Source of the DNA: an uncultured Lachnospiraceae bacterium
GTDB lineage: Bacteria > Bacillota > Clostridia > Lachnospirales > Lachnospiraceae
Length of the DNA: 50,051 nucleotides
Assembly: GCA_946405625.1 (NCBI GenBank)
Contig: CAMJHQ010000025.1
Coordinates: 1 to 50,051 of the forward strand
Direction of reading: 5' to 3'
In this document: piece after piece, positions 2,263-46,700 of the stretch
Layout of the letters: each line of letters opens with the position of its first letter
Numbering within the stretch: the stretch's first letter is position 1
Program-made: the position numbers and the translations under genes
Notes under the pieces: generated by a model
Seen by the model: only the letters and a program-made list of their open reading frames with translations
What the model was told of the DNA's origin: nothing
The model's database searches: none

Positions 2263-3408
2263 TTACCAAAATGTGAAGAAAAATCCCGCAAGCGGCGACA
2301 AAACTATCATTATCACAGAAAATGTAAAGCTTGATATTGACACAAGTGTAGCTCTCTGTTCAGAAGGAAACATATCATTAAGCTTCGCATCCGTCCTTAT
2401 CTGAATAGCATCATCGCATAATGAAGAAATAAATCCGCCTAGTACCATAGGGATAACCGAACCTGTATGTTCGAGCATCACTCCGGTAAGCACACCCACT
2501 GTGCATATGATGAAAAGGTATATGTATCTCACCCTTTTAAATCTAACAATAAGCTTCGATCCTACCACTCCTCCGAGTTCCATAGTAAGAAGCGCAACAC
2601 CCAGAAACCAGTTTGATATTCCCGCAGTTCTAAGTTTACTCTGCAGAAAAAACAGTAGAAGAATGTCTATAGCACCGACAAAAGAATTAAGGAACATAAG
2701 CTTTGTTGCCTTTGGATTTTTTATTAAAAATCGAATACTTTCGACAAAATAATCAATAAGCTTTTTCACTGCTGTTCCGACAGATGCCTTATCACTGTTG
2801 TTTTCAGCACCATCGTTTTCAATACCGTTTTCATCAGCATTATCTGTCTCTTCTATTCTGATCTCCACTAGCTTAAGTGTGAAATACAGCGTAAGAAGTC
2901 CCGTAACGGCACTTATAAGATATGCCTTCCTGTAGCCGAGCCATAAAGCAACGCCTGCGAGGAGTGTTGATATGCCGCTTGCCACACGATATATTATCGA
3001 CTGGTTTGAAGAATATCTCTCATAATATGCTTCCTTCCCTTCAAGCTTCATAGAGTCATAAGCCAGAGCTTCTCCGGATCCCGAAGCGAAGTTATAAGCC
3101 ATCGCATGAAAAGGCATAGCCATACAGGCAACAGCAAAATTTCCGGATAATGCGGTAATGACATCACCTGTTATCGCCATAACATTTCCAAGCGCGAGCA
3201 TTCTTTTTCTTCCGTATACATCCGCCAGCATACCGGACGGAATCTCCATCAGGAGGCTTGTTATATGAAATACAGTTTCGGCAAAACCGATCTGAACCAG
3301 CGAAAAGCCTCTCGATGCCATGATCACAACCCAGGCACCTGTAATAGACAGGTTGCCGAGTATCCCTGTTGTATATAATAATCTTATCTGTTTTCTTAAA
3401 TTGAACAT
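2263..3408 (-). CDS. MFS-family drug-type exporter
   Basis: A 381-residue hydrophobic protein of the major facilitator superfamily, with about 12 membrane segments split by a hydrophilic, acidic central loop (roughly residues 185-215). MFS motif A is visible after the second helix (SGMLADVYGRKRML). The frame is open 14 codons further upstream, but the ATG at 3408 has a GGGAGA ribosome site 6-8 nt away and begins at the hydrophobic domain. The substrate cannot be read from sequence. The gene has its own strong promoter and a small leader ORF (3535-3591), an arrangement known for antibiotic-inducible exporters and ribosome-protection genes, so a drug or toxic-metabolite exporter is inferred. 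No terminator was seen before the groES promoter, so readthrough is possible. Confidence 0.85.
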   Translation of the reverse strand: MFNLRKQIRLLYTTGILGNLSITGAWVVIMASRGFSLVQIGFAETVFHITSLLMEIPSGMLADVYGRKRMLALGNVMAITGDVITALSGNFAVACMAMPFHAMAYNFASGSGEALAYDSMKLEGKEAYYERYSSNQSIIYRVASGISTLLAGVALWLGYRKAYLISAVTGLLTLYFTLKLVEIRIEETDNADENGIENDGAENNSDKASVGTAVKKLIDYFVESIRFLIKNPKATKLMFLNSFVGAIDILLLFFLQSKLRTAGISNWFLGVALLTMELGGVVGSKLIVRFKRVRYIYLFIICTVGVLTGVMLEHTGSVIPMVLGGFISSLCDDAIQIRTDAKLNDMFPSEQRATLVSISSFTFSVIMIVLSPLAGFFFTFW

Positions 3409-38394: not shown

Positions 38395-38419
38395 CGTGAG
38401 GATAATGATCATTCTCACG
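38395..38419. repeat. Imperfect palindrome at the M18 peptidase/sensor-kinase junction
   Basis: CGTGAG and CTCACG flank the self-complementary core AATGATCATT with a 3-nt asymmetric insertion. It covers the stop region of the peptidase gene and lies 14 bp upstream of the kinase start. It could be an operator, an RNA hairpin limiting kinase translation, or chance. Confidence 0.4.
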
Positions 38420-39842
38420 CTTCTTTGAGGAAAGCCTCATAACCCTTTTCTGTTTCATAAATATCAGCCTTTGATGTTACCTCCCAAGGAGCATGCATAT
38501 TAAGTACCGCAACTCCGCAGTCGATAACCTCCATTCCGTAAAGCGAAAGGATATAAGCTATGGTTCCGCCGCCGCCGACATCAACCTTTCCGAGCTCAGC
38601 TGTCTGATAGAATACCTTGTTCTTCTCAAGAATGCCTCTGAGCTTTCCGATATACTCAGCATTTGCATCATTTGAACCTGACTTTCCTCTCGCACCGGTA
38701 AACTTATTGAAAACCATACCCCTGCCGAGGTAGGCTGCATTTTTCTTTTCAAAATTCGCACTGTAAAGCGGATCGTAACCTGCACTGACGTCAGATGAAA
38801 GCATATTGGAATTTGCGAGACATCTTCTGAGTGACAGATTGCTGTTATAGCCTGCAAGTTCAAGAATCTCGGCAAGAGAATTCTCAAAGAACTTGGACTG
38901 CATTCCCGTAGCACCTACAGATCCGATTTCCTCCTTATCAACAAGAAGAGTACATGAAGTCTTCTCAACCTTATCTACCGCAAGCTGTGCATAAAGCGAT
39001 GTAAATGCACATACCTTATCATCCTGTCCGTAAGCAAGGATCATCGAACGGTCGAATCCGAGATCTCTCGGCTTTCCGGCCGGAACAATCTCAAGCTCTG
39101 CAGACATGAAGTCTTCTTCTTCAAATCCATATTTAGCTTTAAGTATCTCAAGCACCTTTGATGTTACGAGACTACCCTTACCCGGCTTCTTCTCATCTCC
39201 ATCAGCCTTTTTAGCTGATGCCTTCTTATCGATAATGATAGGCTTCGAACCGATCAGAAGATCCAGATCCTCGCCCTCTACAGCCTTTGCAGCTTTCTTC
39301 TCCATCTGGTTTGCAGCAAGATGTATCAGAATATCCGTAACGCAGAATACAGGATCTGATTCATCCTCTCCGACAACTACGTCGATAACCGTGCCATCAG
39401 TCTTAACGACCACACCGTGAATAGCAAGTGGAAGTGTAACCCACTGATACTTCTTGATACCACCATAGTAATGTGTATCAAGATAAGCGAGGTCGCTGTC
39501 CTCATAAAGCGGATTCTGCTTTACATCAAGTCTCGGCGAATCTATATGTGCACCGAGAATGTTGATTCCTTCTTCAAGATTCTTCTTTCCGATATTGAAA
39601 AGCGCAACTGTTTTTCCCATGCATACCGAATAGATCTTTGAGCCTGCCTTCAGCTTCTTGCCTGATTTAACAGCCTCATCCAAAGAAATGTATCCAGCAG
39701 CCTTTGCCTTCTCGATTATATACTTAGTCCCTTCTCTTTCGGTCTTGCCGTTAAAAAGGTAATCTTTATATTCGTCACAAAGCTTCTCAAGCTTCTTCTC
39801 ATCCTGTGGCTTATATGAAAGCCATGCGTTCTTTCGCTCCAA
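38415..39842 (-). CDS. M18-family aspartyl aminopeptidase
   Basis: 475 residues. Metal ligands and catalytic residues of M18 are visible in GAHIDSPRLD, YGQDDKVCAF, DKEEIGSVG, LSSDVSAGYD and LNMHAPWEV. It removes N-terminal acidic residues from peptides in the cytosol. A low-complexity Lys/Ala insertion lies at about 205-220. The start is a TTG with AGGAGG 8 nt upstream. It is preceded by two large structured hairpins, so translation or processing of its transcript may be affected. Confidence 0.92.
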   Translation of the reverse strand: MERKNAWLSYKPQDEKKLEKLCDEYKDYLFNGKTEREGTKYIIEKAKAAGYISLDEAVKSGKKLKAGSKIYSVCMGKTVALFNIGKKNLEEGINILGAHIDSPRLDVKQNPLYEDSDLAYLDTHYYGGIKKYQWVTLPLAIHGVVVKTDGTVIDVVVGEDESDPVFCVTDILIHLAANQMEKKAAKAVEGEDLDLLIGSKPIIIDKKASAKKADGDEKKPGKGSLVTSKVLEILKAKYGFEEEDFMSAELEIVPAGKPRDLGFDRSMILAYGQDDKVCAFTSLYAQLAVDKVEKTSCTLLVDKEEIGSVGATGMQSKFFENSLAEILELAGYNSNLSLRRCLANSNMLSSDVSAGYDPLYSANFEKKNAAYLGRGMVFNKFTGARGKSGSNDANAEYIGKLRGILEKNKVFYQTAELGKVDVGGGGTIAYILSLYGMEVIDCGVAVLNMHAPWEVTSKADIYETEKGYEAFLKEA

Positions 39843-39874
39843 TTTTCTGTCCTCCTTAAGGGTATAATACTGAC

Positions 39875-39954
39875 GTCATCCTGTTGTTGGAAGGGCGACC
39901 GAGATGACGCAACTAAAATGGTCACTCGGTCATCCCTTCCAACAGCATGATGAC
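39875..39954. repeat. Tandem covarying hairpin A
   Basis: About 80 bp forming one long imperfect stem: 39875-39895 pairs with 39934-39954 (one mismatch, one G-U), an internal loop, GACCGAG (39897-39903) with CTCGGTC (39925-39931), a 2x1 internal loop, GAC/GTC and a 12-nt apical loop. Hairpin B 23 bp away repeats this architecture with compensatory changes. Confidence 0.8.
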
Positions 39955-39977
39955 TGATTATGAATCAATATACATAC

Positions 39978-40053
39978 GTCTGCCTGATGTCGTAAGGACG
40001 CCTGAGATCACTCGATTGAATAGTGACTCAGGCATCCCTTACGACCGGCAGAC
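39978..40053. repeat. Tandem covarying hairpin B
   Basis: GTCTGCC (39978-39984) pairs with GGCAGAC (40047-40053), then GTCGTAAGG (39989-39997) with CCTTACGAC (40037-40045), GCCTGAG (40000-40006) with CTCAGGC (40027-40033), and CACT with AGTG around a 9-nt loop. The AT-versus-A internal loop next to GAG/CTC is identical to hairpin A. The 39843-40101 region has no ORF. Confidence 0.8.
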
Positions 40054-40101
40054 TGATATTAAACAAAATAGTTTATTATCGCATAAATACGATATCACTC
40101 A

Positions 40102-41316
40102 TTATACCAGCTCAGTAACCACTTCCGAAAGAATCGCAAATGCTTTGTCGATGTCTTCTTTGGATACGATGAGTGGTGGGATCATTCTGATAGTATTTGG
40201 CTTGATTGCTGTAAGCAGAAGTCCCTTATCACCTGCGTTATGCTTTATATCAAAGGCAATATCCTTCTCGAACTCTACTCCGACGAGAAGTCCCATTCCA
40301 CGAACTTCCTTTATTCCCGGAAGTGCCTTCAGTTTGTCCATGAAGTAGTCTCCCATTGCTGCTGCATTTTCAGGGAGCTTTTCCTTGATGATTTCCTTGA
40401 TTTCAGCACATGCTGCTGCAGCACAGACAGGGTTACCGCCGAAGGTTGTTCCATGTGCACCTGCACCGAAGGTACTCATAACCTTTTCGCTTGCACAGAT
40501 ACCTGCTATAGGCATTCCACCACCGAGAGCTTTAGCCATAGATACGATATCAGGCTTAACTCCGTAACGCATATATGCCATGAGGTCTCCTGTACGTCCC
40601 CAACCGGTCTGAACTTCATCAAAGAGAAGAAGCATTCCCTTCTCATCACAAAGCTTTCTGAGGCCCTGAAGGAATTCAGGTGTTGCAGGATAAACTCCGC
40701 CTTCGCCCTGAACAGGCTCAACCATGATAGCTATTGTATCTTCATCACAAGCATCTTCAAATGACTTGAGATTATTAAACTCAGCAAATGTAAATCCCGG
40801 AATAAACGGTGTATAACCATTTGTAAGGGCTGTTCCCGGCTGACCTGTTGCAGCAAGTGTAGCAAGTGTTCTTCCGTGGAAAGACATAGTTGCCGTTACA
40901 ATCTTATATCTGTTCGGTCCATAGTTATCTGTTCCATACTTTCTTGCAAGCTTGATCATAGCTTCGTTTGCTTCTGCTCCGGAATTCTGATACTGGAATT
41001 TATCCATACCGATATTCTCGCAGACAAGTTTTGCAAGCATAGTTTGAGGAATTGTATAAAAATAATTTGAAGAATGGATAAGTGTCTCAGCCTGTTCCTT
41101 GATAGCTTCAACAACTGCTTTATTGCAATGACCTGTTGCATTAACAGCGATTCCGCCGATAAAGTCAAGATACTCCTTACCATCAGCATCTATAAGATAC
41201 ATTCCGTCACCTTTTTCGGCAACGATATCATATCTCTTCATAAGATTCTCATTTAGATATTTATGTGCTGTTTCAATCAGCTCTTCACGTGTCATCCCTG
41301 TACTATTTAAATCCAT
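40102..41316 (-). CDS. argD: Acetylornithine aminotransferase (class III PLP)
   Basis: 404 residues. The PLP lysine is in SMAKALGGGMPIAG and the cofactor-binding aspartate in LLFDEVQTGWGRTG. The N-terminal YLDFIGGIAVNATGHC block is typical of ArgD-type transaminases. It would interconvert N-acetylglutamate semialdehyde and acetylornithine in arginine synthesis; related ornithine or succinylornithine specificities cannot be excluded. GAGG lies 8 nt before the ATG. argH is about 20 kb away, so the arginine genes are scattered. Confidence 0.9.
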   Translation of the reverse strand: MDLNSTGMTREELIETAHKYLNENLMKRYDIVAEKGDGMYLIDADGKEYLDFIGGIAVNATGHCNKAVVEAIKEQAETLIHSSNYFYTIPQTMLAKLVCENIGMDKFQYQNSGAEANEAMIKLARKYGTDNYGPNRYKIVTATMSFHGRTLATLAATGQPGTALTNGYTPFIPGFTFAEFNNLKSFEDACDEDTIAIMVEPVQGEGGVYPATPEFLQGLRKLCDEKGMLLLFDEVQTGWGRTGDLMAYMRYGVKPDIVSMAKALGGGMPIAGICASEKVMSTFGAGAHGTTFGGNPVCAAAACAEIKEIIKEKLPENAAAMGDYFMDKLKALPGIKEVRGMGLLVGVEFEKDIAFDIKHNAGDKGLLLTAIKPNTIRMIPPLIVSKEDIDKAFAILSEVVTELV

Positions 41317-45163: not shown

Positions 45164-46303
45164 TCAGGTTACTTCAGTCAGTAGTCGTAATCCTTCATTT
45201 AGGATATTGATAGCGGCGTTCTGGTCACGGCTTATTGTAAGACCGCAATCACATGTCATTTTACGGATAGCTAAATTCTTCATTTCAGGATGTAACATAC
45301 CACAACAATGACATATCTGTGATGACGGGAACCACTTGTCTACCTTGATGAGATACTTATTCCTGTCAGATAACTTATATTCAAGCATAGACAGGAGCAT
45401 GCCATATCCGTTATCAAGAGTAGCTTTGCCGTTACCAAAGCCTTTGTTAGACATAGACTTCATGTTTAAGGATTCTACGCATACAACATCATACTGATTG
45501 GCTATCTCAGTAGATATCTTATGCAGGTTATCCAAACGCTGATTAGCGATATGCCTATGTATCTTATTCACTTTACGGAGTTGCTTTATATAATTATTGG
45601 ACTTAACCTCGTGTTTCTTAGAGCCTTGCATACGTGATAGCTTACGCTGAGCTTTAGCAAGCTTGTTGTGGCTCTCACGATAATACTTATGATTAGTACC
45701 TGTATTGCCATTATTATCTACGTATAAGCCGTCGGAAGCATAATCTAACCCGATGGCATTAGTTTTATCGGCTACATAAGGATTTACGGTATTCTCAAAC
45801 TCAAAGAGTACGGAGATATAATATTTGCCGTCAGATTCCTGTGATACGGTAGCCGATTTAATTGTCCAACTATCGTCAGGCACACGATGGATAACAGCTT
45901 TTACCTTTCCAATCTTAGGGAGCTTAATACATTTGTTGTCTATGATATCAACTGTGCCTTTTTGATTGTTTGTAGTATAGGACTTACGACTATGTTTGGC
46001 AGACTTGAATTTAGGAAAACCGTTTTTCTTCTTACGAGATTTACTAAATGTATTACGAAAAGCCTCCTGTAAGTCCATCTGCTTATTGGCAAGAGCAAGG
46101 CTGTCTACTTCTCTAAGATAAGGATAATCGTTCTTATACTTAGCAGGTGTAACAGTAGGAAACTTACCAGTAGCCTTGTAGCCTTCAATCTTATCTGAAA
46201 GCATGAGATTATAGACCTTACGACAACAGCCAAAGGTCTTAGCAAACATGACAGATTGTTTAGTTGTAGGATATGCTCTGTACTTAATTGCTCTGTTTGC
46301 CAT
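45164..46303 (-). CDS. tnpB: TnpB RNA-guided nuclease of IS605-type element
   Basis: 379 residues. The RuvC-like catalytic triad is intact: D187 in IGLDYASDG, E277 in VVCVESLNMKSM and D360 in ISRDQNAAINI. A zinc ribbon has Cys at 331, 334, 351 and 353. The N-terminal half is basic (KSRKKKNGFPKFKS) for RNA binding. TnpB proteins cut DNA opposite the element-free site with an RNA made from the right end. It overlaps tnpA by 20 bp. No frameshift, so probably active. Confidence 0.95.
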   Translation of the reverse strand: MANRAIKYRAYPTTKQSVMFAKTFGCCRKVYNLMLSDKIEGYKATGKFPTVTPAKYKNDYPYLREVDSLALANKQMDLQEAFRNTFSKSRKKKNGFPKFKSAKHSRKSYTTNNQKGTVDIIDNKCIKLPKIGKVKAVIHRVPDDSWTIKSATVSQESDGKYYISVLFEFENTVNPYVADKTNAIGLDYASDGLYVDNNGNTGTNHKYYRESHNKLAKAQRKLSRMQGSKKHEVKSNNYIKQLRKVNKIHRHIANQRLDNLHKISTEIANQYDVVCVESLNMKSMSNKGFGNGKATLDNGYGMLLSMLEYKLSDRNKYLIKVDKWFPSSQICHCCGMLHPEMKNLAIRKMTCDCGLTISRDQNAAINILNEGLRLLTEVT

Positions 46304-46700
46304 CTTTCTTACCTTGAGATTGGATGTATTGCTTAATAATATCTACCGTAGCACCGCCCGTGGTTAACAGACAAAAGCTCTGCGACCAGAACATCTCTTT
46401 CCAGAGAGATTTACGTATCTGAGGATATTCTTTTTTGATAAGTCTACTGCTTGCAGATTTATAAGCATTGATAAATTTGCTTATTTCCGTATTGGGCTGT
46501 CCTCGAAATAGTATATGTACATGGTCTATGTCGTGATTCCATTCCTCTAACGTGATGTTATAGGAAGGAGCTATCTTCTCAAATATCTCTTTGAGACGGT
46601 TTGAGATTTTATCATCTATCACTTTATTACGATATTTAATGCACATAATAAGGTGATAATGGAGCATGAATACCGAATGATTATTATTGTCTAATTTCAT
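46284..46700 (-). CDS. tnpA: Y1 HUH transposase TnpA
   Basis: 138 residues, full length. The HUH motif is H60-V-H62 (IDHVHILFRG) and the single catalytic tyrosine is Y125 (IIKQYIQSQ). It excises and inserts single-stranded circles during replication. Its promoter is TTGACT-17 bp-TATAAT at 46744-46772 in the left end. Start is at ATG with family-typical length. Intact. Confidence 0.95.
   Translation of the reverse strand: MKLDNNNHSVFMLHYHLIMCIKYRNKVIDDKISNRLKEIFEKIAPSYNITLEEWNHDIDHVHILFRGQPNTEISKFINAYKSASSRLIKKEYPQIRKSLWKEMFWSQSFCLLTTGGATVDIIKQYIQSQGKKDGKQSN

Follow-up and report, generated by a model that had tools for sequence, protein, structure and literature searches.

A family of intergenic palindromes at gene ends in one group of Lachnospiraceae, probably in part terminators and shaped by template switching

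RESULTS

Two hairpins between an argD-like gene and an M18 aminopeptidase gene

The window analyzed here is a stretch of 50,051 nucleotides (nt) from an uncultured Lachnospiraceae bacterium (genome G000), and all 38 genes called in it by a simple open reading frame (ORF) caller (≥90 amino acids, positions 1 to 50051) lie on the minus strand. A class III aminotransferase (argD-like) gene (40102 to 41316, minus strand; Pfam Aminotran_3, PF00202) lies upstream of an M18 aminopeptidase gene (38415 to 39842, minus strand; Pfam Peptidase_M18, PF02127). The gap from the M18 start to the argD end (39843 to 40101) measures 259 bp, as given in an initial annotation made from the sequence alone, and it contains two hairpins. 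Hairpin A (39875 to 39954, minus strand) is 80 nt long with 31 pairs, and its conserved tip, GAGTGACCATTTTAGTTGCGTCATCTC (39901 to 39927, minus strand), is oriented along argD and the M18 gene. Hairpin B (39978 to 40053, minus strand) is 76 nt long, with four weaker outer pairs possible in addition; its tip, GAGTCACTATTCAATCGAGTGATCTC (40004 to 40029, minus strand), has the same orientation and includes the inner part TATTCAATCGA. Elsewhere in the window, an IS200/IS605-type pair occupies 45164 to 46700 on the minus strand and consists of a Y1 transposase (46284 to 46700) and an OrfB/TnpB-like protein (45164 to 46303).

Folded alone, hairpin A reached −51.7 kcal/mol on the plus strand and −50.7 kcal/mol on the minus strand, and hairpin B reached −43.5 and −48.0 kcal/mol, respectively. 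With z-scores of −7.4 to −10.7 and none of 200 shuffles as stable in any of the four tests, the two hairpins described in the initial annotation were borne out. The paired differences that it had pointed out (GACCGAG/CTCGGTC in A, GCCTGAG/CTCAGGC in B) are exactly as stated, and both copies have the AT/A internal loop, which on the minus strand is AT against G. Comparison of the two window copies with Rfam gave no family at gathering score; at an E value of ≤5, there were three matches to microRNA models, all far under their cutoffs.

The hairpins belong to a family found in one group of close relatives

BLASTN searches recovered one further copy in the same genome and two in a relative. A covariance model (R1) was built from five copies and used to search 61 genomes of the same genus, with stricter filters for many genomes. 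This kind of search had been proposed initially, on the expectation that a structured element would yield many copies with covarying stems; at an E value of ≤0.01, it returned 30 copies, with covarying stems, in 4 of the 61 genomes (6 in G000, 3 in G001, 9 in G045, and 12 in G060) and none in the other 57. Two weaker matches, in G021 and G060, are purB orthologues, and five more same-genus matches at E values of 0.38 to 0.86 stand outside the copy count. G000, G001, G045, and G060, together with G021, are nearest relatives, with purB 98 to 99% identical to that of G021. A second model (R2), applied to a sample of 397 genomes of the family, found no additional member: its matches were confined to the window's genome and to a single weak one in G125, which was rejected as an ordinary terminator-like hairpin. 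Of eight weak matches inspected, L163, L164, L167, and L169 were rejected on the same ground and L168 because it falls within an ORF. L170 proved to be the G000 copy at purB, and L165 and L166, which may have decayed from full copies, were left out of the counts.

Across 84,980 species, the exact tip pattern occurred in 17 stretches, which came from RUG222, UBA2864, and RGIG9269 (corresponding to G060, G045, and G001) and from one Burkholderiaceae record (L077), a chance match without paired arms. A single core match in G067 is probably also due to chance, as the long stem is absent. A search of 11 genomes with the exact inner tip pattern gave 22 matches, of which 21 are known copies, and the reversed-pattern control gave 2. 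None of the 21 exact inner-tip matches within the five genomes of the group is free-standing; each sits in a hairpin copy, although the pattern misses several true copies. Plasmid and phage collections held nothing similar to the hairpins, the exact tip was not found in viral contigs, and a search of the published, mostly open-access literature found no description of this palindrome family. On these comparisons, A and B are members of a small DNA palindrome family that has so far been seen in a single, small group of closely related bacteria and is located mostly at gene ends.

A conserved tip on locus-specific, covarying stems

From 5' to 3', the family layout is a variable arm, GAG-TSACCATT-loop-TTGTGTSA-T-CTC, and then the matching second arm. 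CTC is usually flanked by a bulged T, which is, family-wide, a commoner feature than the AT/A loop of A and B. The tip of ∼27 nt is conserved, and the long stem differs by locus yet still pairs; the tip carries 1.68 bits of information per column, the apical loop 1.22, and the arms 0.72. The arms and ends differ among copies, so that the copies have no common ends. For the covariation analysis, 25 of the 32 candidate copies were used, after removal of two exact duplicates and five weak or short ones. Paired cells made up 96.0%, compared to 76.8% in shuffles that do not keep relatedness. Under the same limit, 11 of 17 pairs were changed on both sides (shuffled, 7.8; equaled by 3 of 500 shuffles), and the covariation score was 0.536, compared to 0.169 for shuffled alignments and 0.106 for the best slid version. 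Between G045 and G060, across five shared gaps that exclude TPP and purB, identity was 0.82 in the tip, 0.68 in the arms, and 0.50 in the flanks (random, 0.47), which suggests that the tip is either kept for some reason or homogenized among copies.

Two loci have unusual surroundings. At L051, on the minus strand, a half copy (5' arm and half of the tip, no 3' arm) lies just upstream, in tip orientation, of a full copy at 2739 to 2782, as though one side of a palindrome were gone. At L074, several head-to-tail units of ∼18 nt (like GGTCAGCGTATTTAATTA) at ∼3110 to 3195 lead into the left arm of the G000 copy at the AMP-ligase locus.

Copies are enriched between convergent genes, and many resemble bidirectional terminators

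The copies follow genes such as gltX, carB, purB, purE, radA, ftsY, and argD. Sixteen gene gaps with copies comprised 8 convergent, 7 co-directional, and no divergent gaps, and 1 unclear gap. In the radA gap of G045, a plus-strand ORF is called beside the copy; this gap was classed by its G060 orthologue. As a background, we took 114 gaps of ≥50 nt from 12 stretches of 20 kb of G045 and G000. Convergent gaps made up 8 of the 15 firm element gaps (9 of 16 counting the unclear one), compared to 6 of the 114 background gaps (Fisher P = 9 × 10−6). Only 9 of the 114 background gaps were divergent, so that the lack of divergent element gaps is unremarkable; it is the convergent excess that stands out. 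Beside co-directional genes, the tip is sense or antisense depending on the locus.

The arms of the 19 G045/G060 copies (two of which are identical to two others) follow a common grammar after CTC, with a G-rich and then a T-rich part on both strands: G has a frequency of 0.79 to 0.89 at arm positions 4 to 6, and T one of 0.84 at position 9. Among the 12 nt after the G+C-rich part, these 19 copies have on average 7.0 and 7.1 T residues on the two strands, compared to 4.5 and 4.4 in 8 G000/G001 copies. The grammar is weaker in G000 and G001, where most copies are T poor and L072 is the sole T-rich one, and it is missing in A and B, which have 2 to 3 T of 12 on either strand. We therefore predict from the arm composition that the G045/G060 copies are bidirectional intrinsic terminators, a role that, given the lack of a T-rich tract, does not extend to the window copies. 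More likely than a terminator, A and B form a hairpin in the argD-M18 transcript or are a tolerated passenger. A consensus terminator scan was negative at A and B; the same scan also failed on an ordinary terminator and on one of the G060 copies and found only a partial stem in a G045 copy, which makes it uninformative here.

Gain and loss of copies between sister species

At several loci, the close relatives differ in whether a copy is present. Among the matches listed for gltX, the element is present in G045 and G060, and its place is taken in G000 and G001 by an ordinary hairpin with a short loop. The clostripain locus of G000, G001, and G021 and the carB locus of G000, G001, and G067 have ordinary hairpins whose stems are different ones. 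The argD-M18 gap contains the element only in G000 (two copies) and G001 (one copy); G045 and G060 have no copy there, and in G021 the two genes almost touch. At several sites, then, an ordinary terminator replaces the element in a sister species or the hairpin is missing there, which argues for recent gain or loss of copies. Sites without the element had been named in the initial annotation as support for a mobile origin, and such sites do exist in sister species. Derivation of the element stems from local ordinary terminators is unsupported, as these stems resemble the ordinary terminators at their own locus no more than those at other loci (the matched sum was 26.7, and 3 of 5 other arrangements scored higher).

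The gap between the TPP-enzyme and ABC genes (L064, 2880 to 3203; L050, 2178 to 2487) holds two copies in opposite orientation. In aligned 60-nt windows, its noncoding stretch is 0.95 to 1.00 identical between G045 and G060, compared to mostly 0.78 to 0.93 for the ABC gene and 0.82 to 1.00 for the TPP gene; one reading of this is recent recombination.

The tip is inverted between species at several loci

Ten loci have copies in at least two species, and the tip orientation is the same at six and inverted at four, although three or more of the five genomes were assembled from metagenomes or uncultured bacteria, with one per species, so that the orientation could in principle reflect how a palindrome was assembled. 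The AMP-ligase tip matches between species at 20 of 20 positions (1.00) when inverted and at 0.70 as it lies; the corresponding values are 0.95 and 0.59 for the HD/M24 tip and 0.81 and 0.62 for the clostripain tip. A weaker case is purB, where the tip of G001 compared to those of four other genomes gave 0.59 to 0.71 inverted and 0.45 to 0.58 uninverted.

Copy B may have a composite origin. The inner 11 nt of its tip are shared with the two AMP-ligase copies and no others (3 of 32 copies), and one 8-nt arm word is common to B and A alone (2 of 32). Its arms are nearer those of A (0.68, with slightly unequal lengths compared). Its tip has an identity of 0.80 to the AMP-ligase copies and of 0.62 to A; by whole tip, some copies of G060 and G045 are just as similar to it (0.80 to 0.81). 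The shared words are short and hint at an exchange of the tip. The claim that the two hairpins do not reflect recent duplication alone is thus weakly favored by the inner tip common to B and the AMP-ligase copies and is not helped by the whole tip, given the equal identity to other copies.

DISCUSSION

Across the group, the copies display a nearly constant tip of ∼27 nt, paired locus-specific stems, an excess in convergent gaps, gain and loss between species, and inverted tips. This is a real, group-specific palindrome family at gene 3' ends, probably consisting in part of terminators and shaped by template switching. The explanation we favor, with a probability of roughly 60%, is that of group-specific dispersed intergenic palindromes at gene 3' ends in which template switching matches the arms and flips the tip and selection favors a hairpin that works. 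Each copy would be a hairpin-forming 3'-end element, and those of G045 and G060 would work as bidirectional intrinsic terminators. The template switching would take place between the two arms during replication, and the selection would act alongside it. The argD-M18 gap would have been entered by two copies, and for the spread to new loci our leading guess would be ectopic exchange between hairpins.

Plain terminators require no conserved tip, and this palindrome family shares one of ∼27 nt across unrelated loci. In other respects it resembles intrinsic terminators: it has the 3'-end and convergent location and, in the G045/G060 copies, a G run followed by a T-rich stretch on both strands. Its paired stem changes are like those of Bacillus cereus terminators, whose stems are reported to evolve by paired changes under selection (PMC5381666). 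In B. cereus, loops are more variable than stems (62% versus 91% invariant columns), and the constant tip and variable stem of the present family are the reverse (PMC5381666). For template switching between inverted-repeat arms, published accounts describe arm matching with spacer inversion in yeast coding genes (PMC8604942) and loop inversions consistent with the mechanism in the rRNA genes of bacteria and other organisms (PMC8794818). As in those cases, the arms here stay matched and the spacer is inverted between relatives. The sizes differ: the spacer inversions described there changed 2 to 5 bp in the yeast genes (PMC8604942), and the rRNA loops described are mostly of four nt and up to seven to eight nt (PMC8794818), whereas the palindromes described here are dispersed, with an asymmetric spacer of ∼20 nt that is inverted at four loci.

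An unlikely alternative is a miniature mobile element whose dedicated enzyme recognizes the hairpin tip in single-stranded DNA, as with REP elements or integron attC sites. Such an enzyme would account for the constant tip and the indifference to gene orientation, and the asymmetric tip with its bulged T, the restriction of 21 of 22 exact inner-tip matches to known group copies, and the gain or loss of copies at different loci between close species would all fit. A Y1 transposase as the mobilizer was rejected, however. IS200-type Y1 transposases (PF01797) occur in 36 of the 61 genomes and were not found in the copy-rich G045 and G060 or in G021, and they number 3 in G000 and 1 in G001, genomes with fewer copies. 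The arms and ends also differ between copies, and there was no match to plasmids or phages and none of the exact tip to viral contigs. REP/BIME elements are small dispersed intergenic palindromes, some of them in tandem or inverted pairs, and in this they and other small interspersed repeats (BOX/RUP) are like the present family; the family differs from REP/BIME in its constant tip and variable stem (1.68 versus 0.72 bits per column), in its 3 to 12 copies per genome, and in that no Y1 (RAYT-type) transposase was found in G045 or G060. Integron attC sites likewise keep structure with variable sequence and have bulged bases, but their conserved boxes are near the base, whereas here the tip is conserved, and the Pfam-named neighbors of the copies are ordinary chromosomal genes. 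MITEs are marked by target duplication and by terminal inverted repeats common to their copies; the arms of the present family differ from one copy to another. Of the three readings offered initially, a repeat of mobile origin stands by the annotation's own yardstick of many copies with covarying stems and of empty sites, and a structured RNA is disfavored by a tip that occurs in either orientation.

The other alternatives locate the function in the tip or in a transcript. We think it rather unlikely that the ∼27-nt tip itself spreads from hairpin to hairpin, by template switching via the GAG/CTC neck, in either orientation and without a transposase, with B as such a transfer. A role of the tips as putative binding sites for a sequence-specific protein (a regulator or a nucleoid or topology protein), with the stems serving as terminators, seems quite improbable: the tip is conserved above the arms and flanks (0.82, 0.68, and 0.50; 1.68 versus 0.72 bits per column) and is present in either orientation, yet all 21 exact inner-tip matches in the five group genomes are hairpin copies, even if the pattern misses several true ones, and the copy number is low (3 to 12 per genome at E ≤ 0.01). 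Still more improbable is a strand-specific structured RNA, a 3' untranslated region element or small RNA selected for its fold. The strong covariation, the stable folds, and the position beside gene ends would suit such an RNA; against it, the tip runs with or against co-directional genes, depending on the locus, and has opposite orientations in orthologues, the reverse strand bulges on the other arm and so would be a different RNA, and the window copies belong to no Rfam family at gathering score.

If the tip does spread by itself, it would be a very small DNA with ordinary terminators as its hosts and a new kind of dispersed DNA. For the favored explanation, the consequence concerns how hairpins are read. 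Paired base changes are commonly accepted as proof of a functional RNA, and the initial annotation took those between A and B as a sign of selection on structure. That conclusion does not follow here, since the tip is inverted between orthologous loci and template switching yields matched arms together with spacer inversion, so that paired changes alone are no proof of selection on RNA. We expect both template switching and selection on the stems to act in this family. With strong covariation and tip inversion that a replication mechanism could also produce, these palindromes would offer a natural test case for separating selection from template switching in bacteria.
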